From: a virus
Strand: one strand, 5' to 3'
Virus record (IMG/VR): IMGVR_UViG_3300029911_000017
Location: 16,230-80,229 of that record
DNA length: 64,000 nucleotides
Positions 1 through 13,015 of the stretch are shown here, piece by piece. The notes under the pieces are model-generated. The model was not told the origin of the DNA. It ran no database searches and saw only the letters and a program-made list of their open reading frames with translations. The position numbers were made by a program, and so were the translations under genes. Position 1 is the first letter of the stretch. Each line of letters opens with the position of its first letter.

Positions 1-2
1 TA

Positions 3-101
3 GCAGACAATACTCTGCTTATAAATCAACAACTTAGGCTTAAAATATCAAATATTAAGCTTAAATCTAAAGGGGCTGGAGGGTTGGGGGTAAATTCATA
101 A
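3..101 (+). CDS. C-terminal end of a gene entering from the left
   Basis: One frame is open from the window edge to a TAA at 99-101 and encodes 32 residues ending in GAGGLGVNS. The other two forward frames contain early stops. The next gene starts four bases later, in keeping with the tight packing here. The product cannot be identified from this fragment, and it lacks the LEPDL-type tail found on many genes of this region. The open frame could also be chance. Confidence 0.35.
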   Translation, partial: ADNTLLINQQLRLKISNIKLKSKGAGGLGVNS

Positions 102-104
102 TTT

Positions 105-632
105 ATGTTAAACAAACTCAAAGCTAAATTCATTAATTGGTTATTCAACAGTATTAAACCTGAAACTAAAGGCGCTGATATAACTTATGTAGGTAAGCAT
201 ATAATTTACATAGGTAAGAGTAATGAAGTATGTAGTTTACCTACTCATCAATTTTCGGCCCAGTCTGAATTAAAAGGACTTAAAAGTAATTTAGATAGTC
301 GTTATAGAGACGTATGTGAACTAAGATCTAATATAGAATTATTAGCAAATTCGATTAATTCTTTAAGGACAGAGATGGAATATATAAGGCAGGTAAGCAA
401 TATTATGAGAAGAGATACTGTCGTTGGAGTTCCTGCTAGCGTAGGAGGAGTACTACAAGGAATTAGAGGATCTGAAATTGTAGTTGATACTAGAAGTGTT
501 GTTCCATCATTAAATGAAGATCCTACAAATTATACAGCCTCTCTAAGACCTACAGTAAGACCAGTAGACGAGCAATCTACTACTAGAACTATGTATTCAG
601 ATGAAGATAGAAATTTAGATCCAAATCTATGA
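105..632 (+). CDS. Hypothetical coiled-coil protein with LDPNL tail
   Basis: This 175-residue protein belongs to no family I recognise. Residues about 55-100 (rich in Leu, Ser, Arg and Glu) look like a coiled coil, and the remainder is polar and probably flexible. It ends in DEDRNLDPNL, the C-terminal tail that closes the cysteine-triplet proteins downstream, although it has no cysteine repeat itself. Its stop overlaps the start of the next gene in an ATGA, so translation is probably coupled. The ATG at 105 follows an AT-rich leader without a clear Shine-Dalgarno motif. Confidence 0.75.
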   Translation: MLNKLKAKFINWLFNSIKPETKGADITYVGKHIIYIGKSNEVCSLPTHQFSAQSELKGLKSNLDSRYRDVCELRSNIELLANSINSLRTEMEYIRQVSNIMRRDTVVGVPASVGGVLQGIRGSEIVVDTRSVVPSLNEDPTNYTASLRPTVRPVDEQSTTRTMYSDEDRNLDPNL

Positions 633-1000
633 CAATAATTAAAAGAAATAATAGATACTTTGATGAAAACAATAATAGTTGGATAACTGAAGAAGAAGCT
701 ACTCAATACTCACCTACCCTAACTAATTGTAGTAGTTGTAGAGATTGTAGTTATTGTAGAGAGTGTAGAGATTGTAGAGATTGTAGTCGTTGTAGTTGGT
801 GTAATGATTGTATTGCGTGTATTAATTGTTATGATTGTAGTAATTGCAGAGATTGTTATGCTTGTCATGCTTGTAGAAGTTGCATACATTGCGCTAATTA
901 TTTAAATAAAATAAACCTAGAACCCCAAGAAATTGTTCGTGAATCAACTTTAAGAGAAGAATTTGACCCGGCCCAGAGACTTTTAGAACCAGACTTATGA
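629..1000 (+). CDS. Cysteine-triplet repeat protein 1
   Basis: First of 12 relatives. Residues 1-32 form a cap with YFDENNNSW and SPTLTNC. Residues about 33-90 are a run of about 19 cysteines at every third position, with Ser, Arg, Asn, Asp and Tyr between. A variable linker leads to the tail REEFDPAQRLLEPDL. There is no signal peptide or membrane segment. Such spacing could place all cysteines on one face of an extended three-residue-per-turn helix, binding metal or cross-linking; that is inference. I know no named family matching this architecture. The gene is coupled by ATGA to both neighbours. Confidence 0.85.
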   Translation: MTIIKRNNRYFDENNNSWITEEEATQYSPTLTNCSSCRDCSYCRECRDCRDCSRCSWCNDCIACINCYDCSNCRDCYACHACRSCIHCANYLNKINLEPQEIVRESTLREEFDPAQRLLEPDL

Positions 1001-1809
1001 GTAATACAAATTATACACATATCGTAGTATTAGTAGACAATAGTGGTAGCATGTTTAATACTAGACAAGCTACCGTAGATGGCATAAATAACTTCTTGAA
1101 TCAACAGAAGGTATTGCCAAGCCAGGATAGAAATCTTAGTTTTGCAGAAGATTTAAGTGATAGTAGTAATAATGTTAAATGTACTACTTCGGTAGTATTC
1201 TTTAGTAGTGTTAGTCATCCTAGTAATTGGTTTACTAACTATAATTCTAATCATGGAGAACCTGTTGATGTTAATTTCAATTATGTAGTTCATTTCGATA
1301 AAGTTAATATTAACGACATCACTCCTATTCAAGAGATAAGTCCTGTAGGTGGAACTCCATTAATAGATGCATTTTGTAAAGCTATTGATGATTGCACACA
1401 GTTTATTAATGTGACTAAAGAAGAAGACAGGCCTGGTAGGATTATTTTTCTAGTCATTACTGATGGGGCGGAAAATAGCAGTACTAAGTTTAAGAAGGAT
1501 GATCTGTCTAGAAGGATAGCGGATAAACAAAGTCTTAATTGGCAGTTTATCTATCTAGGTGCTAATCAGGATGCAATTCAAGAAAGTTCACAATATAGTG
1601 TAGCTCCAGGGCAAAGTTTGAATTATCAGCAAACTAGTAGTGGTATTGCATATGCTTATAGTTTAGCTTCTTCCAATGTCCTACAAAAGCGTTGTGTCGA
1701 TACTGTTGCCATGTTTACTTGTTCTATTGATGCCCTGGATAAAGTCACAAGTACTAGTCAGATAAGTTTCATCACTAATCCAACTTCAACTAATGATACT
1801 AAAATATGA
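997..1809 (+). CDS. VWA-domain protein
   Basis: A von Willebrand factor A domain is visible. Strand 1 carries the metal-site motif DNSGS at residues 14-18. A conserved threonine lies in VGGTPLIDA near residue 115, and an acidic TDGAEN loop is near residue 155. Together they make a complete MIDAS-type divalent-metal site, so the protein probably binds a protein ligand through a metal. There is no signal peptide, so it should act in the cytoplasm. It is ATGA-coupled on both sides and lacks the LEPDL tail. Phage and bacterial VWA proteins work in varied complexes; the partner here is unknown. Confidence 0.85.
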   Translation: MSNTNYTHIVVLVDNSGSMFNTRQATVDGINNFLNQQKVLPSQDRNLSFAEDLSDSSNNVKCTTSVVFFSSVSHPSNWFTNYNSNHGEPVDVNFNYVVHFDKVNINDITPIQEISPVGGTPLIDAFCKAIDDCTQFINVTKEEDRPGRIIFLVITDGAENSSTKFKKDDLSRRIADKQSLNWQFIYLGANQDAIQESSQYSVAPGQSLNYQQTSSGIAYAYSLASSNVLQKRCVDTVAMFTCSIDALDKVTSTSQISFITNPTSTNDTKI

Positions 1810-2024
1810 CTTATAAAATCTGTGAAGAAATAACTAGTAAAGGTTGGAATTATGGTGTGACTAATGCTCCAGCAGAGTTAGTTACCAAAGCTAAAAGTAT
1901 GATTGACGATGAAATGCCAGTAGTATTTGGAATGATACTGAATACAGATAAACCTAAATGGGTATTGCTAAGCGTAAATAAAGATAATCAACTTTATGTT
2001 GCGGCTAGAGGTGTTGATAGCTAA
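1806..2024 (+). CDS. Small hypothetical protein
   Basis: A 72-residue soluble protein of mixed alpha/beta character, starting in an ATGA overlap with the VWA gene. It ends before a hairpin at 2034-2056, so it is probably the last gene of the first transcription unit or of a sub-block. No family is recognised. Confidence 0.7.
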   Translation: MTYKICEEITSKGWNYGVTNAPAELVTKAKSMIDDEMPVVFGMILNTDKPKWVLLSVNKDNQLYVAARGVDS

Positions 2025-2033
2025 AAATAAGAT

Positions 2034-2056
2034 GGGAGGATAGTTACTATCTTCCC
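2034..2056 (+). terminator. Hairpin between gene blocks
   Basis: GGGAGGATAG and CTATCTTCCC form a 10-bp stem (one G-T pair) around a three-base loop. It fills one of the few intergenic gaps in this region. The bases after it are CTTAATAT rather than a T-run, so it may be a weak terminator or a structure that controls access to the next start codon at 2065. Confidence 0.45.
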
Positions 2057-2064
2057 CTTAATAT

Positions 2065-2247
2065 ATGACAATAACAAAAATAAACAATAGATGGTATGAC
2101 GAAAACAATAATAGCTGGTTATCAGAAGAAGCAGCTACTCAATACTCACCTACCCTAACTAATTGTAGAGATTGTAGAGGTTGTAGTAATTGTGATGATT
2201 GTAGTTATTGTGATGATTGTAGTAATTGTAGTGGTTGTAGTACTTGT
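2065..2247 (+). repeat. 183-bp exact repeat (copy at 4161-4343)
   Basis: The first 183 bases of two cysteine-triplet genes are identical including silent positions and diverge at the next base. This shows recent duplication or gene conversion. Confidence 0.9.
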
Positions 2248-2517
2248 AGAGGTTGTATTAGTTGTAGTGTTTGTAGTGTTTGTAGTGATTGTAGTAGTTG
2301 TAGTAGTTGTAGTGGTTGTAATAGTTGTAGTGGTTGTAGTACTTGTTATAATTGTAGTGGTTGTAATAGTTGTAGTAGTTGGTGTGATCATTGTATTAAT
2401 TGTAATAATTGTAGTAGTTGTAGTGGTTGTAATGACTGGACTAATAACATGAAATATGAACCGGTAATTAGACCATTTATAGACTGTACTAACAGACTAT
2501 TAGAACCAGACTTATGA
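2065..2517 (+). CDS. Cysteine-triplet repeat protein 2 (longest array)
   Basis: It has the full cap (NNRWYDENNNSW, SPTLTNC) and about 30 cysteines, nearly all three residues apart; the phase slips once at SSWCDHC. Tail: RPFIDCTNRLLEPDL. The first 183 bp are identical to those of the gene at 4161, while the last 20 residues nearly match the gene at 4583, so it looks like a recombinant of the two. The long Val-rich and Thr-rich frames that overlap it on both strands are by-products of the triplet repeat. Confidence 0.85.
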   Translation: MTITKINNRWYDENNNSWLSEEAATQYSPTLTNCRDCRGCSNCDDCSYCDDCSNCSGCSTCRGCISCSVCSVCSDCSSCSSCSGCNSCSGCSTCYNCSGCNSCSSWCDHCINCNNCSSCSGCNDWTNNMKYEPVIRPFIDCTNRLLEPDL

Positions 2518-2771
2518 ACAATCCAAACATATCAATAGTTATAGCTAAAAATATAGTAAATGGTAATACTATAACCTCAGAATTTAAGCTTAAACCTGAA
2601 GAAACAGCTATTATAACTGAACCAGATCACCTAGAATTTACAAACTTCATACCTAATGAAACAGTATTCATGGAAGCTGATATGAATTTAAGGATGATGA
2701 ATTCCTTCCTAGAAAAGATTAAAATTTTACCAACTAAACAAAGTATTAATATAAAAATGATAAATATATGA
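2514..2771 (+). CDS. Small hypothetical protein
   Basis: An 85-residue protein of probable beta-rich fold (alternating hydrophobics and TSEFKLKPEETAI). It starts inside the stop of the preceding cysteine-triplet gene and its own stop overlaps the next start. No family is recognised and it has no LEPDL tail. Confidence 0.7.
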   Translation: MNNPNISIVIAKNIVNGNTITSEFKLKPEETAIITEPDHLEFTNFIPNETVFMEADMNLRMMNSFLEKIKILPTKQSINIKMINI

Positions 2772-3088
2772 ATTATTTCCTCATCGTAGCCAAACCTACC
2801 AAAGAGCTAGTCCCACTTAGTATTATAAAAGATTTGTTTGATGGATTTAGTGGATCTACAAATATTTCAAAGGTATTGGACGAATCAACCGTATATATTA
2901 GAATTTCGAGTAAAGAATCACTAAAGAAGGTGGAACTTGATAATAATGATACAGTCTATTTAGCTGCTAAAGTAGATTCCACTTATTATAAAGTAATAGA
3001 TAAAGATGATTTTGAATTAGCTACACAGATTTATGCTGAGCTTAAATTGAATAAATGTAGAATACACCCTAAAATATTGTTTATATGA
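2768..3088 (+). CDS. Small hypothetical protein
   Basis: A 106-residue soluble protein opening with NYFLIVAKPTKELVPLS. The spaced beta-strand and helix pattern suggests a small alpha/beta domain. It is ATGA-coupled to both neighbours. No catalytic motif is visible. Confidence 0.7.
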   Translation: MNYFLIVAKPTKELVPLSIIKDLFDGFSGSTNISKVLDESTVYIRISSKESLKKVELDNNDTVYLAAKVDSTYYKVIDKDDFELATQIYAELKLNKCRIHPKILFI

Positions 3089-3564
3089 CTTTCCTAGAAC
3101 AATGCTTCCAAGACCATAATAGTACAATAGTTAAAATTAATATAGATTTAGTTAATAGATTGGTTCAAATATGGAATACTAATAATACTTATTCTAATTT
3201 AACTTTTGGTGGGATAGAACAAAAAAATAACAATAAATTAAAAGTAGGTCAATGTAGAGACATTAACATCTATTTAGAGATTCCAATAATAAGTTCTCTT
3301 CTATATTTTGAGTTTGATAGATTAACCTATAATTACCACTATTTTAGTCCTGGTTCGGAATATATAGAAGTTGATAATAGTCTGATTAAAATACAAAGGT
3401 CGATTGTACATTATAGTAGTGTTATTCCAGCATTGATCCGAAAAGCAAAAGATATTGAAAAGAAGAAGAAACATTATGCTAAACTAACTACCAGAAGCAT
3501 AAAAACAGCTCAGCAAGAACTCAAGAATTTCCAGGATGCTATTAAACCAAAAACCAAAAAGTAA
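3085..3564 (+). CDS. Hypothetical protein with basic C-terminus
   Basis: A 159-residue protein. The first 110 residues are mixed hydrophobic and polar. Residues about 115-159 form a helical, strongly lysine-rich segment ending in KPKTKK, which could bind nucleic acid or another acidic partner; this is inference. It closes a chain of overlapping genes and is followed by a short CA-rich leader (3565-3597). Confidence 0.7.
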   Translation: MTFLEQCFQDHNSTIVKINIDLVNRLVQIWNTNNTYSNLTFGGIEQKNNNKLKVGQCRDINIYLEIPIISSLLYFEFDRLTYNYHYFSPGSEYIEVDNSLIKIQRSIVHYSSVIPALIRKAKDIEKKKKHYAKLTTRSIKTAQQELKNFQDAIKPKTKK

Positions 3565-3597
3565 ACAACCAAACCAACAAACCAACAAACTAATATT

Positions 3598-3885
3598 ATG
3601 CCTATATCACCATTACCAGCCCTAGTCTCTGACCCTAAAGATGCCATTCTTTGGGCAGTTTTAAATCAATTAGAGAATATCGATGACACTACCGGTACTA
3701 GAATGGCTTTTGCAACTAGTGTAGCTTATAACATTCACTTAGGTCTGGATCGTCCTATATTTGAAGATATTATTAGAGAAATTAGAACTGTACTCAAGGT
3801 TCCAGAGCCGGTTATCAGTGAAGTTGAAGAACCAGGAACTATGCGGGCTGATATAACTGAATTCGATACTATGCGTGACCTTTAA
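3598..3885 (+). CDS. Small hypothetical acidic protein
   Basis: A 95-residue protein with a helical core and a C-terminus that repeats a short phrase (TMRADITEFDTMRDL). The final RDL only loosely resembles the LEPDL tail of its neighbours. The start follows an unstructured leader built of repeated AACCAACAA units, without a Shine-Dalgarno motif. Confidence 0.65.
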   Translation: MPISPLPALVSDPKDAILWAVLNQLENIDDTTGTRMAFATSVAYNIHLGLDRPIFEDIIREIRTVLKVPEPVISEVEEPGTMRADITEFDTMRDL

Positions 3886-3897
3886 TTAAGAAGTAGT

Positions 3898-4164
3898 ATG
3901 AAAACTTATGACTATAAAGTAATACTAATAAATCATGATGGTTGTAATGATTGCTACAATTGTAGTGATTGTATTGATTGTTGGGATTGTAGTGGTTGTA
4001 ATGATTGTAATAATTGTAGTAATGGTATTAATTGTAGTGATTGTGAAGGACTTTATAATTTTATAAATAAGAAAAATTGGTCAGCGCAACCTAGCATTGA
4101 TACAACAAATGAAAAACGACCTATCTTAGACATTAATGATAGAAATCTAGACCCTTTCTTATGA
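3898..4164 (+). CDS. Cysteine-triplet protein 3, divergent cap
   Basis: This 88-residue member lacks the WYDENNNSW cap and begins MKTYDYKVILINHDG instead, going straight into about 11 cysteines in CxxC steps. The register breaks at NCSNGINC. It keeps the tail, in the form DINDRNLDPFL, and ATGA coupling to the gene at 4161. It shows that cap, array and tail can be combined independently, or else it is a decaying copy. Confidence 0.75.
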   Translation: MKTYDYKVILINHDGCNDCYNCSDCIDCWDCSGCNDCNNCSNGINCSDCEGLYNFINKKNWSAQPSIDTTNEKRPILDINDRNLDPFL

Positions 4165-4586
4165 CAATAACAAAAATAAACAATAGATGGTATGACGAAA
4201 ACAATAATAGCTGGTTATCAGAAGAAGCAGCTACTCAATACTCACCTACCCTAACTAATTGTAGAGATTGTAGAGGTTGTAGTAATTGTGATGATTGTAG
4301 TTATTGTGATGATTGTAGTAATTGTAGTGGTTGTAGTACTTGTGGAGGTTGTATTAATTGTAGTGTTTGTAGTGTTTGTAGTGATTGTAGTAGTTGTGGA
4401 GGTTGTATTAATTGTAGTGTTTGTAGTGTTTGTAGTGATTGTAGTAGTTGTAATGATTGTAGTGATTGTAAAAAATGTTATAAATGTGATAATGGAACAC
4501 ATCTAGAGCCAGTTCAAATTAAGACTGAAGTTATGATAAGACCAGAATTAGACATTAATGATAGAAAGTTGGAACCAGACTTATGA
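4161..4586 (+). CDS. Cysteine-triplet repeat protein 4
   Basis: Canonical cap, about 26 cysteines, tail RPELDINDRKLEPDL. An exact 54-bp tandem duplication (4341-4394 and 4395-4448) has added 18 residues to the array, so its length is changing in units of whole triplets. The cap and first part of the array (4161-4343) are identical to 2065-2247. A short Lys/Tyr-rich stretch (KKCYKC) ends the array. Confidence 0.85.
   Translation: MTITKINNRWYDENNNSWLSEEAATQYSPTLTNCRDCRGCSNCDDCSYCDDCSNCSGCSTCGGCINCSVCSVCSDCSSCGGCINCSVCSVCSDCSSCNDCSDCKKCYKCDNGTHLEPVQIKTEVMIRPELDINDRKLEPDL
4341..4448 (+). repeat. 54-bp perfect tandem duplication
   Basis: Two identical 54-bp units, each starting TGTGGAGGTTGTATTAATTG, lie head to tail inside a cysteine array and keep the reading frame. 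The perfect identity points to a very recent slippage or unequal recombination event. Confidence 0.9.
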
Positions 4587-4960
4587 CAATAACAAAAAGA
4601 AATAATAGATGGTATGACGAAAATAATAATAGTTGGATAACTGAAGAATCAGCTACTCAATACTCACCTACCTTAACTAATTGTTATGATTGTAGAGGTT
4701 GTAGTAATTGTAGTAGTTGTAGAGATTGTTATAATTGTAGTTATTGTAGTAGTTGTAGTAATTGTAGTAGTTGTATTAATTGTAATAATTGTAGTAATTG
4801 TAGTAATTGTAATAATTGTAATAGGTGTAGTGATTGTAGTGATTGTAGTTATTGTAGTCGTTGTAGAGATTGTAGTGATTGGACTGATAATAAGAAATAT
4901 GAACCGGTAATTAGACCATTTATAGACTGTACTAACAGACTATTAGAACCAGATTTATGA
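4583..4960 (+). CDS. Cysteine-triplet repeat protein 5
   Basis: Cap NNRWYDENNNSWITEESAT, about 22 array cysteines, and tail RPFIDCTNRLLEPDL with one more cysteine. Bases 4599-4783 are identical to 10950-11134 in a family member 6.3 kb away, whereas the C-terminal segment matches the gene at 2065. Coupled by ATGA at both ends. Confidence 0.85.
   Translation: MTITKRNNRWYDENNNSWITEESATQYSPTLTNCYDCRGCSNCSSCRDCYNCSYCSSCSNCSSCINCNNCSNCSNCNNCNRCSDCSDCSYCSRCRDCSDWTDNKKYEPVIRPFIDCTNRLLEPDL
4599..4783 (+). repeat. 185-bp exact repeat (copy at 10950-11134)
   Basis: Identical sequence in two family members 6.3 kb apart; both flanks differ. It covers the end of the cap and the first half of the array. 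Confidence 0.9.
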
Positions 4961-5454
4961 ATAACAACCTTAAAATAGTAGAACAAAACATATTATTAGC
5001 AGACGCCCAAGTAGTTGCTCATTGCTGTAATAATATGAACAAAATGGGTAGTGGGGTAGCCAGAGCCCTAAGATGTAGATTTCCGGAAGTATATGCAACT
5101 GATACCAAGTCTTATATTAACTTTGGTTCAGCTATGTTGGGTAAATGTGTGTTAGTTCCTATCACTACTCTACCTAATCAGACCAAGCTACTATACGTTG
5201 CCAATCTATATGGTCAATTAGGTTATGGTACAATGCATCTTAGATATGTGCATTATGAAGGATTTTACTTAGCTTTAGAGTCATTAATAAAGCAAATGAG
5301 TGAGCAGAATATGACTAGACTGGCTTTACCTTATAAGATAGGTGCGGATAGGGCTGGCGGTAATTGGAATATTATTGAAACTATGGTTAAGGAGGTTATT
5401 AAAGGAAGTAACATTGAAGTTACTCTATATAAACTTCCTAAAAAGTTAATGTAG
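4957..5454 (+). CDS. Macro-domain protein
   Basis: The 165 residues fit a single macro domain, the fold that binds ADP-ribose and often removes it from targets. Visible marks are VAHCCNNMNKMGSGVARAL near residues 20-38 (binding loop with the conserved Asn and Gly-Ser-Gly-Val), FPEVY, and LPYKIGADRAGGNW near residues 128-141. There is no signal peptide. In a phage, likely roles are reversing host ADP-ribosylation or handling ADP-ribose signals of NAD-based defences; which one cannot be told from sequence. ATGA-coupled to the upstream cysteine-triplet gene. Confidence 0.85.
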   Translation: MNNNLKIVEQNILLADAQVVAHCCNNMNKMGSGVARALRCRFPEVYATDTKSYINFGSAMLGKCVLVPITTLPNQTKLLYVANLYGQLGYGTMHLRYVHYEGFYLALESLIKQMSEQNMTRLALPYKIGADRAGGNWNIIETMVKEVIKGSNIEVTLYKLPKKLM

Positions 5455-5456
5455 TT

Positions 5457-5690
5457 ATGACTCTTTATATCATTCTAAGACATATCAGATCTCCATCAAC
5501 TAACGCTATTATAGACGTCCTATATCAAGCGTTTCAAAATAAGGAGGCAGCCCTGGAATATATCAAATTTTTAACAGATAATAGTACTGTAGTAGGTGAA
5601 TTTGAATTGAAGGAGTTTGTATCGGTTGAGAAAGATGAGATAACAATTAGAAGTGAGGGTGGGGAAAGAAGATTAGAACCAGATTTATGA
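5457..5690 (+). CDS. Small hypothetical protein with LEPDL tail
   Basis: A 77-residue protein starting MTLYIILRHI, with an acidic alpha/beta body. It ends in IRSEGGERRLEPDL, virtually the same ending as the gene at 8148. It has no cysteine array. It resembles the genes at 6097 and 8148 in its opening (M-x-x-Y-x-I) and size, so the three may be one small family. Confidence 0.75.
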   Translation: MTLYIILRHIRSPSTNAIIDVLYQAFQNKEAALEYIKFLTDNSTVVGEFELKEFVSVEKDEITIRSEGGERRLEPDL

Positions 5691-6100
5691 CAATAACTAA
5701 AAGAGATACTAGATGGTATGACGAAAACTATAATAGCTGGGATACTAAAGAATCAGCTACTTTACACTCACCTACCCTAACTGATTGTAGATGGTGTAGA
5801 GGTTGTAGTGATTGTAGAAGGTGTAGTAATTGTAGATATTGTAGTGATTGTAATGCTTGTAGTGGTTGTAATGGTTGTAGAGATTGTTATAATTGTAGTA
5901 ATTGTATTGATTGTAGAGATTGTAATGGTTGTAGTGATTGTAGTAGTTGTAGAGATTGTATTTATTGTAGTAGTTGTAGTAATATTTCTTCAGAAAATGA
6001 TAAATCGTGGTTTAAGTCCATGTATTATGGAGATGAAGTTAATAAGGAAATAAGACCAGAATTAGACATTAATAATAGAAAGCTAGACCTAGATTTATGA
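5687..6100 (+). CDS. Cysteine-triplet repeat protein 6
   Basis: Cap RWYDENYNSWDTKESAT, about 22 cysteines at every third residue with more Arg than other members (RWC, RRC, RYC), then a linker with NDKSWFKSMYYGDE and tail RPELDINNRKLDLDL. Embedded in an ATGA-coupled run between two tail-bearing genes without arrays. Confidence 0.85.
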   Translation: MTITKRDTRWYDENYNSWDTKESATLHSPTLTDCRWCRGCSDCRRCSNCRYCSDCNACSGCNGCRDCYNCSNCIDCRDCNGCSDCSSCRDCIYCSSCSNISSENDKSWFKSMYYGDEVNKEIRPELDINNRKLDLDL

Positions 6101-6423
6101 TTGTATATGCTATTAAAATATTGAAAGTTAAATATAGTAGAAATACCCTACCTAATAAGTTTGTTAGAGTAGTTATTAAGTATATCGAATTTTATGATAG
6201 GGAAGGTTACTGTGATGATGAAGAACAGACTAGTATTGAACCTGTAGATTTATACCAAGCCTCTTTGTATCTTAGTAAAGAAGCTGTGGAACAAGAAATT
6301 AAAAGGGTAAGGATGATAAAAGAAGCGTACAAATACGAAATAGTTGAGATAGAATTAGCTGAGTTAAGTAAGCCTGAAATAAGAATAGAGAACCAGTACA
6401 GAAGATTAGATCTAGAATTATAA
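6097..6423 (+). CDS. Hypothetical protein with LDLEL tail
   Basis: A 108-residue charged protein starting MIVYAIKILKV and ending IRIENQYRRLDLEL. The body alternates beta-like stretches with an amphipathic helix (YLSKEAVEQEIKRVRMIKEAY). It carries the family tail without cysteines, like the genes at 5457 and 8148. Function unknown. Confidence 0.75.
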   Translation: MIVYAIKILKVKYSRNTLPNKFVRVVIKYIEFYDREGYCDDEEQTSIEPVDLYQASLYLSKEAVEQEIKRVRMIKEAYKYEIVEIELAELSKPEIRIENQYRRLDLEL

Positions 6424-6428
6424 ACAAT

Positions 6429-6869
6429 ATGCCTAAAGCCACAAATATAAATTGTCATGCCGCCAAAGATATCAATAAACTACCAGATAACACAGTATTG
6501 ATATCAATAAATGAAGAATATGAGCCACTTTATCCTTTAAAGTTGGATAGAGAGTCAGAAAATGTGTTAACTTTAAGATTTACTGATATAACTGCACCTT
6601 TAACTCATGAAGGCGAAATGTATCATCCTATTAGTGCTGAAGATGCTTTTAAAATATTAAAGTTCATTGATAAGCATTTAACCAAAGATTTCATAGTTCA
6701 TTGTGCAGCTGGGGTATCTAGAAGTTCAGCTATTTGTCTCTATCTACATATTATGCATTCATATGTGTTAAAAGACAATTTTTGGCTTTCTTCTTCACCT
6801 AATTGCTATGTACTTGGTATGTTAATGCGGCGTAAGGTTGAGCAGGAATCTATGTTAGACGAGATTTAG
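6429..6869 (+). CDS. Dual-specificity-like protein phosphatase
   Basis: The P-loop signature VHCAAGVSRSSA is present near residues 90-101, giving the nucleophile Cys92 and phosphate-binding Arg98 of the Cys-based CX5R phosphatases. An upstream FTDIT (Asp near 53) is a candidate general acid. The 146-residue length fits a minimal catalytic domain with no targeting sequence. It probably dephosphorylates Ser/Thr/Tyr residues or another phosphate ester in the host cytoplasm. It begins five bases after the preceding gene and lacks the LEPDL tail. Confidence 0.85.
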   Translation: MPKATNINCHAAKDINKLPDNTVLISINEEYEPLYPLKLDRESENVLTLRFTDITAPLTHEGEMYHPISAEDAFKILKFIDKHLTKDFIVHCAAGVSRSSAICLYLHIMHSYVLKDNFWLSSSPNCYVLGMLMRRKVEQESMLDEI

Positions 6870-6870
6870 T

Positions 6871-7116
6871 ATGTCAGATCCAAATCCTCGTATCTTTCCT
6901 ACTCGATTTCGGCTTTTGAGTAATATGGAAGTCATAATAACTAAAGAAATAGATGTACAGTGGTGGGGTGATCTACATTATTTATTCGATGTAATTATAG
7001 AAGATAATAATAACTACTTTTTAGTATATAATAAAGTAGGAGAGACACAGGTTAAAGCTATTATAAAAAGGAGAGAACTTAAACAGTATAATGGTGAATA
7101 CTATGAAAATAACTAA
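6871..7116 (+). CDS. Small hypothetical protein
   Basis: An 81-residue, probably beta-rich protein (DVIIEDNNNYFLVYNKVG). It follows the phosphatase by one base and overlaps the start of the next cysteine-triplet gene by 14 bp. No family is recognised. Confidence 0.7.
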   Translation: MSDPNPRIFPTRFRLLSNMEVIITKEIDVQWWGDLHYLFDVIIEDNNNYFLVYNKVGETQVKAIIKRRELKQYNGEYYENN

Positions 7117-7435
7117 AAGAGATGATAGATGGTATGACGAAAACGATAATAGTTGGTCTACAGAAGAATCAGCTACTCAATTCTCACCTACTCTAACTAA
7201 TTGTATTAGTTGTAGAGATTGTAGATGGTGTAATGATTGTAGAGATTGTAGAGATTGTTATAATTGTAGTAATTGTAGTAATTGTAGTAATTGTAGTAGT
7301 TGTACTTATTGTAGATGGTGTAATGATTGTAGTAACTGTATTGATTGTAGTGATTGGACTGATAATAAGAAGTATGAACCAGTAACTAGACCGTTTATAG
7401 ATTGTAGAGATAGACTATTAGAACCAGATTTATGA
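7103..7435 (+). CDS. Cysteine-triplet repeat protein 7
   Basis: The start at 7103 (MKITKRDDRWYDE) is chosen because it aligns with all relatives; an in-frame ATG at 7091 would only add four residues. About 17 array cysteines, then SDWTDNKKYEPV and the tail RPFIDCRDRLLEPDL shared with the genes at 2065 and 4583. Confidence 0.85.
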   Translation: MKITKRDDRWYDENDNSWSTEESATQFSPTLTNCISCRDCRWCNDCRDCRDCYNCSNCSNCSNCSSCTYCRWCNDCSNCIDCSDWTDNKKYEPVTRPFIDCRDRLLEPDL

Positions 7436-7830
7436 AAATAACAAAAATAGCTAATAGATGGTATGACGAAAACAATAATAGCTGGGATACTGAAGAAGCA
7501 GCTACTTTATATTCACCTACCCTAACTAATTGTTATAATTGTAGTAATTGTAGTAATTGTAGTGTTTGTAGTGATTGTAGTAATTGGTGTAGTAATTGTA
7601 ATGATTGTGATAGTTGTAGAGATTGTATTAATTGTAATAATTGTGGTAGTTGTAGTAGTTGTAGTAATTGTAGGAGTTGTTGTAGGTGTAGTGATTGTGA
7701 TAATTGTAAGTTTATTGCTTCTTTATTTGATAGAGTTGAAGTTGATGCAAGTTTAATTGAAAGCTGCAAAGAAAATTTAGTTAGAGAAGAATTTGACTTA
7801 AACAATAGAAAACTGGAAATAGAACTATGA
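7432..7830 (+). CDS. Cysteine-triplet repeat protein 8
   Basis: Cap ANRWYDENNNSWDTEEAAT and about 21 cysteines with two irregularities: a four-residue step at SNWC and a doubled cysteine in RSCCRC. After the array comes an acidic, cysteine-poor segment (about 45 residues) and the tail REEFDLNNRKLEIEL. ATGA-coupled on both sides. Confidence 0.85.
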   Translation: MKITKIANRWYDENNNSWDTEEAATLYSPTLTNCYNCSNCSNCSVCSDCSNWCSNCNDCDSCRDCINCNNCGSCSSCSNCRSCCRCSDCDNCKFIASLFDRVEVDASLIESCKENLVREEFDLNNRKLEIEL

Positions 7831-8099
7831 AGACACTATACGAATTTGAAGAACAACAAAAAGAACTTATAGCTGCTTGTGAGAGAGAAGCTAAAGCTAA
7901 ATTAGAAGGCAAAAATGTATTTATGGATACTTTTGCGCATCGGTTTGAAGATATAGTTGAAGAAATACAAAGAGATGCTAGGAGAGAAGGGGTTAGAGAT
8001 TGTATAAGGGATATACATATGTGTAAATCAGTTCAATCTAATCCAGACATTATTTATACCCATGAATTAATAATAGCAAGATTAATTAAACTATTATGA
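7827..8099 (+). CDS. Hypothetical helical protein
   Basis: A 90-residue highly charged protein, nearly all helix by composition (EEQQKELIAACEREAKAKLE). There is no LEPDL tail. It overlaps both neighbours by ATGA. Function unknown. Confidence 0.7.
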   Translation: MKTLYEFEEQQKELIAACEREAKAKLEGKNVFMDTFAHRFEDIVEEIQRDARREGVRDCIRDIHMCKSVQSNPDIIYTHELIIARLIKLL

Positions 8100-8194
8100 A
8101 CATATATGAAGTAGTAGATAAATATGAACTAGCACAATATATTCTAAATGAAAATATACCTAATACAGGTTCTAAAACTAAATGGTTTTCTATA
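8096..8194 (+). CDS. Possible 32-residue ORF
   Basis: An ATG in the ATGA stop overlap at 8096 opens a 32-codon frame (MNIYEVVDKYELAQYI...) ending TGA at 8194. Its opening resembles small proteins of this region, but it overlaps the next frame (start 8148) by 47 bp. Either it is a tiny coupled gene or the pair is one gene split by a frameshift. Confidence 0.4.
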
Positions 8195-8441
8195 TGATAA
8201 TGCTGATGAAATTCGGTATTTAGCAGTGAATTCTTATATAGACTATACAACAAGGGAAGTAAAAAATGCTAGAGTATTTGAAGATAGAGAAAAAATTGGA
8301 GACGAACTATATGAAATTACACTAATGAATAGTTTTAATTTTCTCGTTACTAAAATTCTTGAGTTTGAGCTAGTAGAATTTAAAGGTAATAAGTCAATTA
8401 GAAGTGAGGGAGGAGAGAGAAGATTAGAACTAGACTTATGA
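8148..8441 (+). CDS. Hypothetical protein with LELDL tail
   Basis: A 97-residue protein starting MKIYLIQVLKLNG and ending IRSEGGERRLELDL, the same ending as the gene at 5457. The opening pattern M-x-x-Y-x-I matches the genes at 5457 and 6097, which supports ATG 8148. A different frame starts at 8096 upstream, so a disrupted longer gene is possible. Confidence 0.65.
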   Translation: MKIYLIQVLKLNGFLYDNADEIRYLAVNSYIDYTTREVKNARVFEDREKIGDELYEITLMNSFNFLVTKILEFELVEFKGNKSIRSEGGERRLELDL

Positions 8442-8917
8442 CAATAACTAAAATAGATAATAGATGGTATGACGAAAACAATAATAGTTGGTCTACAGAA
8501 GAACTAGCTACTACTGACTCTCCTACCCTAACTAATTGTAGTAGTTGTAGAGATTGTAGATGGTGTAGGAATTGTATTCATTGTAAAGGTTGTATTGGTT
8601 GTATTGATTGTTATGATTGTAATGATTGTAGTAATTGTAGTAGTTGTAGTGGTTGTAGTAGTTGTATTGATTGTAATCGTTGTAGTGATTGTACTGGCTG
8701 TATTGATTGTAGTTATTGTAGTTATTGTAATAATTGTAGTGAGTGTAGTAACTGTAAAAACTGTTATAAATGTAATACCTTTTCTTTTTGTAGAAACTGT
8801 GCTTTTGGTTTTAAGAAAAGCTATTATAAACCTATGAAGTATAAACGTAGAGCTAAGAAGAGTAAAATTAGACAGGAATATGACATTAATGATAGAAGAT
8901 TGGAGATTGAACTGTGA
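8438..8917 (+). CDS. Cysteine-triplet repeat protein 9
   Basis: The largest member (159 residues), with about 27 cysteines in register plus a CRNC pair after the array. The C-terminal part is rich in Lys and Arg (YKPMKYKRRAKKSK) before the tail RQEYDINDRRLEIEL, giving a basic arm as in the genes at 9854, 10934 and 11523. The array includes Ile-containing triplets (IHC, IGC, IDC). Confidence 0.85.
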   Translation: MTITKIDNRWYDENNNSWSTEELATTDSPTLTNCSSCRDCRWCRNCIHCKGCIGCIDCYDCNDCSNCSSCSGCSSCIDCNRCSDCTGCIDCSYCSYCNNCSECSNCKNCYKCNTFSFCRNCAFGFKKSYYKPMKYKRRAKKSKIRQEYDINDRRLEIEL

Positions 8918-9159
8918 TAGCAAACCATATAATATTAACCAGCTGTTACTTAGTAGTAGGGATACTTATAGCTTTAAGAACTGTTATTGAATATACTGAC
9001 ATCCATTACTATCCTAAGAAGTGTAAGTTAATATTATTTATCCTAGTAATTGCCATATATGCTGTAATAGATGTAACAATTTGGCCTTTATATGCAATTT
9101 TAGGTTTGATATCAGGAATAAGAAGATTAACCAAAGAATTTTTTAAGAATAACAACTAG
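8914..9159 (+). CDS. Small membrane protein
   Basis: An 81-residue protein with two hydrophobic segments (residues about 5-23 and 38-66) separated by YTDIHYYPKKCK and ending in a basic tail. It starts with GTG inside a GTGA overlap with the preceding stop, the only non-ATG junction of this kind seen here. It may sit in the inner membrane with both ends in the cytoplasm. Candidate functions are lysis control or superinfection exclusion; neither is shown by sequence. Confidence 0.7.
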   Translation: MIANHIILTSCYLVVGILIALRTVIEYTDIHYYPKKCKLILFILVIAIYAVIDVTIWPLYAILGLISGIRRLTKEFFKNNN

Positions 9160-9184
9160 ACAAACAAACAAATTAACGTATAAT
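9157..9184 (+). promoter_or_regulatory. Possible sigma-70-type promoter
   Basis: TAGACA and TATAAT are spaced by 16 bp immediately before the gene at 9191. Initiation about seven bases after the -10 box would give an almost leaderless transcript. The gap also holds CA-rich repeats. No experimental support. Confidence 0.35.
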
Positions 9185-9190
9185 AAACAT

Positions 9191-9823
9191 ATGAAATTAA
9201 CATCAATAACATCAATAATGGCAGTAATTAGTCTATGCACTATTTCTGCTTTCGGTCAAACTAATGTCACTCAAGTCCCAAACTTGATGGCCAACATTCC
9301 TGTCTCAACAGCTGTGCAGGCTATCTATCAGGACATTGCAAATTCTGGTATTATGCAGGCAACTAATTGGGGAGTTAGTCCTTATGGTACTTATGCACCT
9401 AAGTCAGCTAACAAATATGGTGGTGGTGTATTGGCAGTATATAATGTCCCAACACTTACCGGGTCTTTAGGAGCAGTTGGTGCAGTGTTAGGGGCAGATT
9501 GGTTGGGGTCCTGGTCTTTGGTCAGTGGTTCAGTAACTCTTTCAACACCTACGCATCCATTAGCATCAACATCACTATTAAACTGGCTTCCTACCGGTAT
9601 TCGTAACATTGAAGCTGATCCTATTGCTATTGCTGGTATCGGAACACCCTTATCTGGGTCATCTGGGGCAGCTGAGTTGTGGGATATAGGATACAACGTT
9701 GATATTTATAATACTGCTACTAGTAAAGTCGGCGCTGGGTTTACTTGGGGTGAATGGATCAATGCCGGAACTGAGTCTGGACATAGATATCACTTATTCG
9801 TTAGTTGGAAATACAACTTCTAA
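9191..9823 (+). CDS. Outer-membrane barrel-like protein with signal peptide
   Basis: Residues 1-22 form a Sec signal peptide (MKLTSITSIMAVISLCTISA, then FGQTN). The mature 190 residues alternate in a beta-strand pattern with Gly and aromatic residues and end in HLFVSWKYNF, the terminal Phe signature recognised by the BAM machinery. This indicates export to the host outer membrane. Such a phage protein might block receptor access or alter permeability. It is set off from its neighbours by its own possible promoter. A host-derived gene acquired by the phage is plausible. No exact family assigned. Confidence 0.7.
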   Translation: MKLTSITSIMAVISLCTISAFGQTNVTQVPNLMANIPVSTAVQAIYQDIANSGIMQATNWGVSPYGTYAPKSANKYGGGVLAVYNVPTLTGSLGAVGAVLGADWLGSWSLVSGSVTLSTPTHPLASTSLLNWLPTGIRNIEADPIAIAGIGTPLSGSSGAAELWDIGYNVDIYNTATSKVGAGFTWGEWINAGTESGHRYHLFVSWKYNF

Positions 9824-9853
9824 TTTAGTTAGAGTAGTTTATACTACTACACT

Positions 9854-10177
9854 ATGAAACTAACAAAAAGAAATGATAGATGGTATGACGAAAACAATAA
9901 TAGTTGGATAACAGAACAACTAGCTACTCTACACTCACCTAATCTAACTAATTGTAACTGGTGTAGTGATTGTAGTAATTGTAATAATTGTAATAGTTGT
10001 AGTGATTGTAGTGATTGTAGAGATTGTTATATGTGTGTTAATTGTAGGAGTTGTAATCATCTTGCAAATAAGAAAAACTATAAACCACAACCTATTAAAT
10101 CTAAGAAAAAGAAGAAAATTACTAAAATTAGACAAGAATACAATATTAACGATAGAAGATTGGAACTAGAATTATGA
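9854..10177 (+). CDS. Cysteine-triplet repeat protein 10
   Basis: A short array of about 12 cysteines after the cap NDRWYDENNNSWITEQLAT. A basic arm (KSKKKKK) comes next and the tail RQEYNINDRRLELEL closes it. ATGA-coupled to the SGNH hydrolase gene. Confidence 0.85.
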   Translation: MKLTKRNDRWYDENNNSWITEQLATLHSPNLTNCNWCSDCSNCNNCNSCSDCSDCRDCYMCVNCRSCNHLANKKNYKPQPIKSKKKKKITKIRQEYNINDRRLELEL

Positions 10178-10872
10178 AAATAATAGCAGATGGTGATAGT
10201 TGGAACAGCTACCCACTTCCTTTCTCTGGTGGTGGGTTGGCTGATCATTTAGCTGTTGTGTTAGATATTGATATTGAAAACTATGCCCATCCCGGTGATA
10301 GTACTGAAGAAACAATGGGCTTAAAGAAGAGATTAAAGTTGGAACAATATCTACCAAACAGTGATATCTTATTATTCTCAGGTGGTGGTGATGATTTTGT
10401 GGGTGATCAGCTTCCTATATTTCTAAATGATAATAAGGATGGAAATATTAATAAAGCCATAGATCTTGATAGACTTGATGCAGCCATGGATCTTGCTATA
10501 GCAGATTATGAGGATCTGTTTCAGTTAAGAGATGAAATAGCTCCTAACTGTCTCATAATTACACATAGCTATGATTTTCCTGTTCCTGAAATGATTGGTA
10601 ATGGTGTATTGTGGTTAGGTCCTTGGATTAAACCTGGGATGGATCATTGTGGCTGGACTAATCCTAAAGATGCTGCTGATATAACGAAGCTTATTCTTTT
10701 AGAATTTGAAAGAAGAATAAGTTTGCTCAGTCTACCTAATCATCTTCATATTAATTTTCAAGGAACATTAACTACTTCTGACTGGGGTAATGAAATACAT
10801 CCTAATAGTAGTGGTTGGAAGAAGTTAGCTAATCAAATTAAATTGAAATTAGTCCATTATTTAAATAAATAA
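10174..10872 (+). CDS. SGNH/GDSL-type hydrolase
   Basis: Block I is GDSW at residues 7-10 with nucleophile Ser9. The GGGDD turn near residues 70-74 fits block III. Near the C-terminus DWGNEIHPNSSGW supplies the catalytic His209, with Asp203 or a water-assisted arrangement in place of the usual Asp three residues before. No signal peptide is seen. The expected reaction is ester hydrolysis, for example deacetylation of a glycan or cleavage of a lipid ester. It lies in the cysteine-triplet cluster and is followed by a terminator-type hairpin. Confidence 0.8.
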   Translation: MKIIADGDSWNSYPLPFSGGGLADHLAVVLDIDIENYAHPGDSTEETMGLKKRLKLEQYLPNSDILLFSGGGDDFVGDQLPIFLNDNKDGNINKAIDLDRLDAAMDLAIADYEDLFQLRDEIAPNCLIITHSYDFPVPEMIGNGVLWLGPWIKPGMDHCGWTNPKDAADITKLILLEFERRISLLSLPNHLHINFQGTLTTSDWGNEIHPNSSGWKKLANQIKLKLVHYLNK

Positions 10873-10886
10873 TATCAATCTTAACA

Positions 10887-10912
10887 TAGCCTCCTACAAA
10901 ATTAGGAGGCTA
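10887..10912 (+). terminator. Terminator-type hairpin
   Basis: TAGCCTCCTA and TAGGAGGCTA pair perfectly over 10 bp around the loop CAAAAT, followed by TTATCATTT. It lies just after the SGNH hydrolase gene and probably ends that transcript. Confidence 0.75.
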
Positions 10913-10933
10913 TTATCATTTACAAACAGCACT

Positions 10934-11347
10934 ATGAAACTAAGAAAACGAAATAATAGATGGTATGACGAAAATAATAATAGTTGGATAACTGAAGAAT
11001 CAGCTACTCAATACTCACCTACCTTAACTAATTGTTATGATTGTAGAGGTTGTAGTAATTGTAGTAGTTGTAGAGATTGTTATAATTGTAGTTATTGTAG
11101 TAGTTGTAGTAATTGTAGTAGTTGTATTAATTGTTATAATTGTAGTGATTGTAGTAATTGTAGAAATTGTATTAGTTGTAGTCGTTGTAGTGGTTGTAGT
11201 ATTTGTAAAGGTTGCAAACAGTCAATAGAATTAGACTTTAAGAAAAACTATAAACCACAGCCTATTAAATCTAAGAAAAAGAATAAAATTGCTAAAATTA
11301 GACAGGAATACAATATTAATGATAGAAGATTGGAGATTGAACTATGA
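10934..11347 (+). CDS. Cysteine-triplet repeat protein 11
   Basis: The cap and first half of the array (10950-11134) are identical at DNA level to 4599-4783, while the basic arm and tail (11203-11327) are identical to 11756-11880. The gene is therefore a mosaic of two other members. About 21 cysteines. First in a block after the terminator. Confidence 0.85.
   Translation: MKLRKRNNRWYDENNNSWITEESATQYSPTLTNCYDCRGCSNCSSCRDCYNCSYCSSCSNCSSCINCYNCSDCSNCRNCISCSRCSGCSICKGCKQSIELDFKKNYKPQPIKSKKKNKIAKIRQEYNINDRRLEIEL
11203..11327 (+). repeat. 125-bp exact repeat (copy at 11756-11880)
   Basis: Encodes the basic arm and most of the C-terminal tail of two neighbouring cysteine-triplet proteins. The arrays before it differ, so ends and arrays recombine separately. 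Confidence 0.9.
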
Positions 11348-11526
11348 TAATAAACAATAAAAATACAATCGATGATACTTATATATTGGTTGATAAGATA
11401 AATGGAACATTAAATTTTGAAGACCTTACCATAGTTGATTTAAGTGATGATGAAGTTAGAATACTTAATTACGCTTATGCTTTAAATGGTAGTTCTTTAC
11501 GTTATATTTCAGTAACACAATCATGA
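11344..11526 (+). CDS. Small acidic hypothetical protein
   Basis: A 60-residue protein, acidic and probably alpha/beta (LTIVDLSDDEVRILNYAYAL), joined by ATGA to cysteine-triplet genes on both sides. It has no array and no tail. No family is recognised. Confidence 0.65.
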   Translation: MIINNKNTIDDTYILVDKINGTLNFEDLTIVDLSDDEVRILNYAYALNGSSLRYISVTQS

Positions 11527-11900
11527 AACTAACAAAAAGAGCTGATAGATGGTATGACGAAAACGGTAATAGTTGGATAACTGAAGAACTAGCTACTACA
11601 TATTCACCTACCTTAACTAATTGTTATAATTGTAGAGATTGTAGTAGTTGTAGTAATTGTAGTAGTTGTATTAATTGTAGTTATTGTAGTGATTGTATTA
11701 ATTGTAATAGTTGTAGAAGTTGTAGTCGTTGTAGTGCTTGTTATAATTGTATAGGTTGTAAAGGTTGCAAACAGTCAATAGAATTAGACTTTAAGAAAAA
11801 CTATAAACCACAGCCTATTAAATCTAAGAAAAAGAATAAAATTGCTAAAATTAGACAGGAATACAATATTAATGATAGAAAGCTAGAATTAGAATTATGA
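11523..11900 (+). CDS. Cysteine-triplet repeat protein 12
   Basis: Cap ADRWYDENGNSWITEELAT, about 17 cysteines, then the segment KGCKQSIELDFKKNYKP shared exactly with protein 11 and the tail RQEYNINDRKLELEL. Last member of the family in the window. Confidence 0.85.
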   Translation: MKLTKRADRWYDENGNSWITEELATTYSPTLTNCYNCRDCSSCSNCSSCINCSYCSDCINCNSCRSCSRCSACYNCIGCKGCKQSIELDFKKNYKPQPIKSKKKNKIAKIRQEYNINDRKLELEL

Positions 11901-12004
11901 AACTTCACATATTATATAATATAGCAACAATGGCAGATATTAAGTTGACTAAGAATGAAGCTAGACCACTTAATTATAGCCCTCCCAGATATGTTCTGTT
12001 TTAA
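11897..12004 (+). CDS. Possible 35-residue ORF
   Basis: The ATGA at the end of the last cysteine-triplet gene opens a 35-codon frame (MKLHILYNIATMADIKL..., ending PPRYVLF). Its position at a conserved stop/start junction favours translation. It is followed at once by hairpin structures at 12012-12050. Confidence 0.45.
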   Translation: MKLHILYNIATMADIKLTKNEARPLNYSPPRYVLF

Positions 12005-12011
12005 TCTACCT

Positions 12012-12050
12012 AAGGTGATAGCTGCAAAGCACACCTTTTTTTAGCTATCA
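12012..12050 (+). terminator. Two overlapping hairpins with T-run
   Basis: AAGGTG (12012-12017) pairs with CACCTT (12032-12037), running into seven T residues, which is terminator-like. TGATAGCT (12016-12023) pairs perfectly with AGCTATCA (12043-12050). The two stems share bases and cannot form together, as in attenuators. It separates the accessory region from the fibre genes. Confidence 0.5.
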
Positions 12051-12096
12051 GTAAGTTTGCCTTGAATATAGATTAACTTGATTGTATTATATAGTT

Positions 12097-12648
12097 ATGT
12101 CAGCTATTATCTCATTGTGTGAAAGGAATGGTGTTATACCAGGCTTGATTACAGAGAATATAAGCTCAATTAGTTGGAAAGCTGTAGATGATGTTACTAC
12201 TCCATATAGTTCTTATAATGCTGTCCTCAATCTAGGCAATAATAGCTATACTGTATATAATTATTTTAAATTTACTGGAGTATTTACAAGTATAGGAAAT
12301 GTATCAGTTACTCATTTAACCGGTACCCTCCCTTCCGGAGTGAAATTAATGTCGAATCCAACTATAACTCAAACTAGTAATAGACCACTTTATATTACAC
12401 CTACTACAGCAACTACCTCCATCACCTCCAATGATTTAAGTAGTGTAGGTAGTTCAGTTAATCTGTTAATAGGTCCTGCTCCTAATAATGTAGATGGTGC
12501 TGGAGCTGATGGTAAGTCTAATGCAGCTGGTAATTCAGGAACTCCATTATATAGCACATATTTTATAACTCAATTACAAGTAGCCATCAATGCCAATGCT
12601 GGAGATTTAAACAATGTAATACTCCAGGTAAGTTATAATGAAGTTTAA
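12097..12648 (+). CDS. Probable tail/fibre-associated protein
   Basis: The start is set at ATG 12097 rather than an in-frame TTG at 12082. The 183 residues are beta-rich with Gly/Asn/Ser-rich C-terminal loops (GAGADGKSNAAGNSG), typical of virion surface proteins. It is first in the + strand fibre block and overlaps the next gene by 11 bp. No specific domain recognised. Confidence 0.6.
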   Translation: MSAIISLCERNGVIPGLITENISSISWKAVDDVTTPYSSYNAVLNLGNNSYTVYNYFKFTGVFTSIGNVSVTHLTGTLPSGVKLMSNPTITQTSNRPLYITPTTATTSITSNDLSSVGSSVNLLIGPAPNNVDGAGADGKSNAAGNSGTPLYSTYFITQLQVAINANAGDLNNVILQVSYNEV

Positions 12649-13012
12649 ATATTTATACAAAGTAGTTTATAATGATGGGTCTACTTATGAACAGAATGAG
12701 GAAGATATTTCTATTATAGATCCTACTAAAAGCTGTTATTCTGATCTTAAATTGGATGAAATTAAGACATTTACTCTCTATAATGACGAAAACTGGTTTA
12801 GTTTGGACCTAGCTACATTAACATTTTATTTTAAAAAGCATATAATATTTAAACCAACCCATACTAATCCTAACTATATAAAATTGAAGCACTTTAGAAG
12901 AAATACTATAACTATCCAAAGTGACGGTAAAATAATTAATACTGAGTATCATTTAGGTTATACTGGTGAAGATGATGGAAAACTTATAGGCGAGACGATA
13001 ATCATAACATAA
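12638..13012 (+). CDS. Hypothetical protein in fibre block
   Basis: A 124-residue protein rich in Tyr, Lys and Thr with alternating strand pattern. It overlaps the end of the preceding gene and sits just before a fibre gene. It may be a small tail component or assembly partner; nothing in the sequence decides this. Confidence 0.6.
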   Translation: MKFKYLYKVVYNDGSTYEQNEEDISIIDPTKSCYSDLKLDEIKTFTLYNDENWFSLDLATLTFYFKKHIIFKPTHTNPNYIKLKHFRRNTITIQSDGKIINTEYHLGYTGEDDGKLIGETIIIT

Positions 13013-13015
13013 TTT

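Follow-up and report, generated by a model that had tools for sequence, protein, structure and literature searches.

A phage family of Cys-x-x repeat proteins with interchangeable ends, diversified arrays and a putative beta-solenoid fold

Results

Twelve genes for Cys-x-x proteins in one phage region

The window analysed here is a stretch of 64,000 nucleotides, bases 16230-80229 of the viral record IMGVR_UViG_3300029911_000017 (80,229 bases in total), and its first part carries a cluster of genes whose products have a cysteine at every third residue of a long array. An earlier note, made from the DNA letters alone (the sequence-only reading), had described twelve such genes, and twelve plus-strand open reading frames (ORFs) encoding proteins composed of a cap, a (Cys-x-x)n array, and a tail were confirmed at 629-11900, one of them capless. 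We call these Cys-x-x (CXX) proteins, and their tail the tag. Proteins 1 (629-1000) and 2 (2065-2517) have both the cap and the tag, with 19 and 31 Cys, respectively. Protein 3 (3898-4164) is the capless member, tagged and with 11 Cys, and proteins 4 (4161-4586), 5 (4583-4960), 6 (5687-6100), 8 (7432-7830), 10 (9854-10177), 11 (10934-11347), and 12 (11523-11900) are tagged as well. For protein 7 (7091-7435), the alignment indicates an inner ATG at 7103 as the likelier start of the cap, and protein 9 (8438-8917) was modelled with AlphaFold (me75ef38235b4). Several neighbouring genes of the cluster are joined by ATGA overlaps.

In the window members, the cap has the consensus RWYDENNNSW and is followed by a helix-like stretch up to SPTLTNC. 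The array had been described as pure, which is nearly the case: consecutive array cysteines lie exactly three residues apart in 229 of 235 steps, with six exceptions, and the longest unbroken run of each member is 9-27 triplets. The number of cysteines per protein starts at 11, as claimed, but reaches 31 instead of 30. To the residues given for the x positions (mostly Ser, Asn, Asp, Arg, Gly, and Tyr), Ile has to be added, which is nearly as frequent as Gly (25 and 29, respectively, among 460 x residues). The cysteine codons of these arrays are 227 TGT versus 3 TGC, all 137 counted serines at x positions use AGT, and the x codons include AGA, AAA, and TGG. Such arrays are not a product of chance: in a set of 20 window genes outside the family, Cys makes up 0.8% of the residues (76/9168).

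A family search recovered all twelve window genes and two more CXX members elsewhere in the same record, both upstream (G000 1134-1529 and G000 7415-7948). The latter carries a C-terminal domain, called C-domain 2 below. The former (locus L009) seems, by eye, to have a membrane-helix-like C-terminal end in place of the tag.

Database matches and spread of the family

All five window members that were scanned match phrog_15341 (PHROGs v4, unknown function), with E-values of 3e-7 to 1e-19. For the four capped members among them, the range is 2e-14 to 1e-19, and the match covers the cap and the array, not the tag. Further CXX types from beyond the window also match this family. Pfam gave no meaningful match for the five window members (E up to 1) or for 10 other CXX proteins (E up to 0.01), one scanned member having a sub-threshold CAF1 row (E 0.096), and none of 10 CXX proteins, one of them from the window, was matched in NCBIfam at E 0.1. 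A match to a characterised family, which would have refuted the sequence-only reading, was thus looked for with the scanned members in Pfam, NCBIfam, and PHROGs, and none was found. The statement that no named family has this build holds insofar as only nameless PHROGs match; nevertheless, a different named protein with C-x-x repeats, the heterocycloanthracin precursor, does exist, as the available text of PMC2674419 describes. No description of a phage C-x-x repeat was found in the open-access literature searched.

Relatives of the window type amount to 46 confirmed stretches in 31 loci, several of which share contigs, and those of a second CXX type to 104 confirmed stretches, 80 of which were taken into the analysis of that type. 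Bacterial or metagenome-assembled genomes contribute 13 loci, eight with a complete CXX ORF and four in which none was found; one of the 13, L145 (Streptomyces), appears unrelated by eye. Weak cap matches (best E 2e-3) occur in 15 Campylobacter phage records, and the two examined are Firehammervirus, with a CXX array adjoining the portal gene. A tblastn search of phages and plasmids with a whole member returned nothing, perhaps due to low-complexity masking, whereas cap-only and C-domain queries did retrieve relatives; a first scan of genome contigs, based on the alignment of the window type, yielded no relatives. As judged from these comparisons, the CXX proteins are a real, uncharacterised family, which is widespread in phages and prophages and combines its repeat with several caps and C-terminal domains.

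Constraint at the protein level

The pattern of substitutions indicates that the CXX genes encode genuine proteins. In three gap-free array pairs from near-identical phages, 58/58 Cys but only 67/113 x residues are conserved, and in 49 proteins of the phage group, 1097 of 1132 Cys steps are exactly three residues. The same trend is seen in 122 distinct arrays of 8-59 triplets, a set from which reading frames with proline-rich or Asn-rich x1 positions had been removed beforehand. In this set, the Cys codons shift from TGT to TGC with the base composition of the phage and the Ser codons from AGT in AT-rich phages to TCC or TCG in GC-rich ones, with C-S-x retained, and the second x residue is mostly Asp, Gly, Arg, Asn, Ser, or Tyr. 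Since the codons follow base composition while C-S-x persists, a constraint acting on the DNA only is insufficient. The caps are under purifying selection, with a ratio of nonsynonymous to synonymous differences per site (pN/pS) of 0.52 in 40 distinct caps.

Modular architecture and predicted fold

The CXX array sits between interchangeable parts: by eye, four or more kinds of cap and a number of C-terminal domains can be told apart. For C-domain 1, 80 of 364 confirmed relatives were kept for analysis; ahead of the domain, 76 of these 80 loci have at least five CXX triplets, three have a CXX stretch that is short or truncated, and in one no frame was found. C-domain 2 also terminates phage YdcK/hexapeptide (PF18836, PF00132) and pentapeptide (PF00805) proteins, and a profile comparison between its CXX set and its hexapeptide/pentapeptide set gave a probability of 99.4% (E 5e-22). 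With the hexapeptide-type query, all eight further viral loci had a hexapeptide-like repeat ahead of C-domain 2; the CXX-type domain was found in three loci, CXX preceding it in two and the third having been missed by the search pattern. The sharing of this domain by CXX proteins and known solenoid proteins places the CXX array in the slot of a beta-solenoid. Proteins such as gp34 of Ruminococcus phage phiRM10 and gp3 of EBPR siphovirus 1 have the same layout of N-terminal part, repeat, and homologous C-domain, with a repeat of 5 or about 6 residues instead of Cys-x-x. The families PF00805, PF00132, and PF18836 themselves matched neither the five window members nor 10 other CXX proteins.

Two AlphaFold models agree on a cap with a predicted local distance difference test score (pLDDT) of about 90, followed by an array in which beta bridges recur with a period of three residues. 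We therefore favour a predicted narrow solenoid of about four triplets per coil with Cys inside, in which the cysteines would point inward. The sequence-only reading had proposed a three-residue-per-turn helix with the thiols on one side, but both the module context and the predicted bridges point to a solenoid, at moderate-to-low model confidence for the array, and make this polyproline II-like helix the less likely form. The structure prediction that it had suggested thus returned a confident cap and a solenoid-like array of lower confidence.

The weak Foldseek rows for the window member include antifreeze and pentapeptide beta-helices. In the beetle antifreeze protein TmAFP (1ezg), the inward residues C2, S5, C8, and A11 have i, i+3 spacing, according to the part of PMC8038014 available. 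TmAFP thus resembles the predicted CXX fold in its inward every-third position and in having Cys in the core, but it has a 12-residue TCTxSxNCxxAx repeat, ranks of Thr, and disulphides, whereas only 5 of 460 x residues in the CXX arrays are Thr. Ice binding was rejected as a role on account of this low Thr content and the lack of TxT ice-binding ranks.

A C-terminal tag on CXX and unrelated proteins

The fixed tail described for the cluster is indeed present, but it is not specific to the family; it is a general C-terminal tag that also occurs on unrelated small proteins. The motif R-x-[LIM]-[DE]-x-x-[LIM] terminates 16 of the 237 window ORFs of at least 40 residues, namely the 12 CXX proteins and four others, and was found at none of the 27,966 internal positions of the same ORFs. 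All 16 lie on the plus strand within 105-11900, and the likeness spans about 16 residues by eye. The four unrelated proteins are encoded at 105-632 (ending in RNLDPNL), 5457-5690 (RRLEPDL), 6097-6423 (RRLDLEL), and 8148-8441 (RRLELDL), the third having a TAA stop and no ATGA overlap to the next gene. We ruled out that the tail is merely DNA for ribosome binding or gene overlap: its leucine and acidic codons vary, and several tagged genes stop with TAA, which indicates that the tag is conserved at the protein level.

Across 14 loci of the phage group, we counted 85 distinct tagged proteins, 48 CXX and 37 others, a number in which orthologues from related contigs are entered separately and at least one tag, RVIESRL, is probably there by chance. 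The non-CXX tagged proteins include strings of proteins of 72-97 residues, and scans of some of the non-CXX tagged proteins gave no clear match in Pfam or PHROG. One such string, L012 6662-9157, consists of tagged proteins of 80-95 residues, several with a similar "VGD-V" start, with one CXX gene inside; two of its proteins had no match in Pfam and one had none in PHROG.

Diversification and recombination of the arrays

One related locus, L010, is identical letter for letter to the first 13,000 bases of the window. A near-identical phage, L011, is more informative: 16 of 18 non-CXX genes of the cluster have 97-100% protein identity to their counterparts there (two have none), and six flanking genes show one synonymous difference in about 600 sites. 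By contrast, 10 of the 12 CXX proteins are only 57-82% identical to their best match in L011, the exceptions being the capless protein (100%) and one capped protein (93%). In 12 syntenic comparisons, arrays were 55-69% identical in nine, a value that includes Cys, by definition one third of the array residues, and tails were 97-100% identical in six. The two genes of the pair 13086/13133 have identical tail DNA but differ in their x codons at 31 nonsynonymous and no synonymous sites.

Comparison of gene order shows the fusion of genes 8654 and 8995 into one, a gain in which 12497 corresponds to two genes, and, between 2192 and 3628, a loss of genes along with those lying among them. For 10/10 genes, a non-syntenic copy provides the longest exact match to the array, although chance favours this outcome, one syntenic gene being set against about 49 others from a total of 51 members. 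The exact matches to non-syntenic copies, along with the fusion, gain, and loss, argue for recombination among copies and phages. A general assembly error is countered by a two-gene CXX region that is letter-identical in five contigs with different IMG accessions. A chimeric CXX gene was also observed at L024 10001-10414, where the array of gene 5 crosses over into that of gene 11 and about 6.3 kb are lost; this 6.3-kb deletion could be real or an assembly collapse.

The copy number had been taken to argue for strong selection for diversity. Strong diversification of the copies was borne out, but pN/pS offers no clean test of the selection part: with pN 0.441 and pS 0.097 for the x codons of 37 distinct twelve-triplet arrays, it cannot separate favoured from tolerated diversity because the synonymous sites of the arrays are themselves homogenised. 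A diversity-generating retroelement, which the many NNT x codons had suggested, was rejected: reverse transcriptase (PF00078) was found in none of five viral records, which are possibly incomplete, and neither the AGA, AAA, and TGG codons nor the uniform AGT serines fit it.

Possible role and alternative explanations

We put a probability of about 0.42 on a reading in which the CXX protein is a cap-started, Cys-cored solenoid with a recombining x surface, sent to its destination by a C-terminal module and used for binding or decoying variable host molecules. The short folded N-terminal cap would start a narrow beta-solenoid, the Cys of every triplet would line its core, and the two x residues would form an exposed, changeable surface. 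The C-terminal module, a short tag in this cluster and a domain elsewhere, would determine the destination of the solenoid. Within this group of phages, gene copies would have multiplied and their arrays would have been reshuffled by recombination between copies, the phage thereby holding binding surfaces that keep changing but carry a single address tag. The likeliest use would be to bind or decoy variable host molecules, e.g. defence proteins, probably as counter-defence. This role is inferred by analogy with the tagged, injected internal proteins of phage T4, and so is the tag as a putative address, possibly to the capsid. In the available text of PMC12373910, T4 Ip1-3 have only a packaging leader in common, are injected, and block GmrSD, and T4 internal proteins are described as countering subtype-specific restriction enzymes. 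Like the tagged proteins of the window, T4 IPI-III are unrelated small accessory proteins that have a terminal signal in common and vary between phages; the T4 signal, however, is N-terminal and cleaved. A common N-terminal leader of the T4 type was not found in the window proteins, whose common signal is C-terminal.

Several observations weigh against this binding-surface interpretation. Concerning the fold, the array pLDDT drops from about 76-85 beside the cap to about 34-44, and Foldseek gave no significant match for either model. The top VIA-align row for the window member is 1ezg (Z 7.7, 78 residues, root-mean-square deviation 3.4; next row Z 4.3), but a Z below 8 may reflect merely a common arrangement, the alignment spans low-confidence residues, and 1ezg may be the source from which AlphaFold borrows. 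The sole trace of a 12-residue coil in the sequences is a weak signal at lag 4 (z of 2.4 and 4.2 for x1), and other lags rise too. Concerning selection, the low pS may stem from homogenisation of the repeat, and the Cys pN of 0.000 in the twelve-triplet set follows by construction from its selection as pure C-x-x. Concerning the role, 63 of 78 second-type loci have a single CXX ORF, six have two or three, and nine have none complete, which implies that the family does not in general serve as a repertoire. Hexapeptide homologues with C-domain 2 are found near replication and recombination genes, and so, as judged by eye, are the CXX genes of certain smaller phages; these neighbours suggest that an early cytosolic role fits better and that injection is not general.

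The main rival is a metal or redox thiol protein, resembling metallothionein, with Zn, Cu(I), or Fe bound to the cysteines or the cysteines serving as a thiol buffer, and with x residues of minor importance. We consider it rather unlikely, though some points favour it: cysteine, about one third of the array, is its most constant residue in the three pairs compared above, and a reducing cytosol is the probable location of the window members, which have no secretion signal noticeable by eye (no search was aimed at one). Nevertheless, no scanned member matches a metallothionein in Pfam or NCBIfam, the spacing is almost entirely CxxC with CxC rare, and aromatic and branched x residues are present. 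A metal sink would tolerate the strong change of the x residues but leaves it unexplained.

Neutral turnover, that is minisatellite-like slippage or conversion of a repetitive tract in which only Cys is constrained and diversity is not selected, is also an unlikely account of the whole. The near-uniform third positions, seen in the TGT excess, are as in homogenised repeats, and copies do fuse and duplicate. Such turnover sits less easily with an x-codon pN/pS of about 4.5 against 0.52 for the caps, even if this ratio does not test cleanly for positive selection, and with same-length arrays that differ nearly only at x codons next to identical tail DNA. It could account for the variation, not for the conserved cysteines.

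A narrower version of the binding-surface interpretation, in which a repertoire of Cys-cored solenoid binders (about 4 Cys per 12-residue coil) is loaded into the virion through the tag and injected as variable counter-defence, seems improbable in this full form.

A solenoid that mimics DNA and targets gyrase or nucleases, similar to Qnr and MfpA, would suit the slot of the pentapeptide solenoids and the weak fold rows to AlbG, AhQnr, and QnrB1, but it is very improbable given that the arrays are near-neutral (mean charge -0.16 per triplet over the 122 arrays, 5-95% range -0.50 to +0.07), which speaks against strong mimicry. Least credible of all is a precursor of a thiazole/oxazole-type ribosomally synthesised and post-translationally modified peptide, with the cap as leader and the C-S-x array heterocyclised: the heterocycloanthracin precursor (TIGR03601) resembles the cap and array in its leader and repeated Cys-Xaa-Xaa (PMC2674419, as available), and Cys and Ser are modifiable residues, but that precursor has 88 residues and needs cyclodehydratase machinery, the NCBIfam scan included this type of model and matched none of the 10 proteins, CXX arrays reach 59 triplets, often with conserved domains after them, YcaO was found in none of 10 possibly incomplete viral records and in only one of five CXX-bearing bacterial genomes (about 330 kb distant), and radical S-adenosylmethionine proteins were found in none of the 10 viral records, while the many in the three bacterial genomes searched are usual for bacteria.

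If the binding-surface interpretation is true, Cys-x-x would be a third repeat among the solenoid modules that phages combine with a cap in front and a C-domain behind, its Cys core being an unusual kind of protein core, and the phage would maintain a fast-changing solenoid family under one common tag. The partner or destination of this tag should then show what dozens of small, so far unnamed proteins of phages do.

Neighbouring genes

Other genes lie within and beyond the cluster. A VWA-like protein (997-1809, plus strand; phrog_7371, E 5e-35) is without a counterpart in L011, where it would be expected between two CXX genes. Amid the CXX genes, 4957-5454 (plus) encodes a protein resembling macro domains, with a match to phrog_335 (E 9e-33) and one to Pfam Macro that stays below the cut-off, and 6429-6869 (plus) a dual-specificity-phosphatase-like protein (Pfam below the cut-off). 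The scan for promoters and terminators and the Rfam search gave nothing useful; the sole terminator-like hairpin in 1-14000, at 10886-10913 (plus), lies upstream of CXX gene 11, and shuffled sequences average 3.4.

On the minus strand, the gene at 60102-62660 matches PHROG families of head maturation proteases and of endonucleases, and is apparently a head-maturation-protease-like gene split by an intein with endonuclease similarity. Small HNH-endonuclease-like proteins were noticed by eye amid structural genes (50617-51054, 52910-53326, and 53295-53789, minus). The proteins encoded at 55697-56497, 56561-57433, and 59436-60098 (minus) have, also by eye, a short "F-K-AL-NG" stretch in common, perhaps a structural motif.

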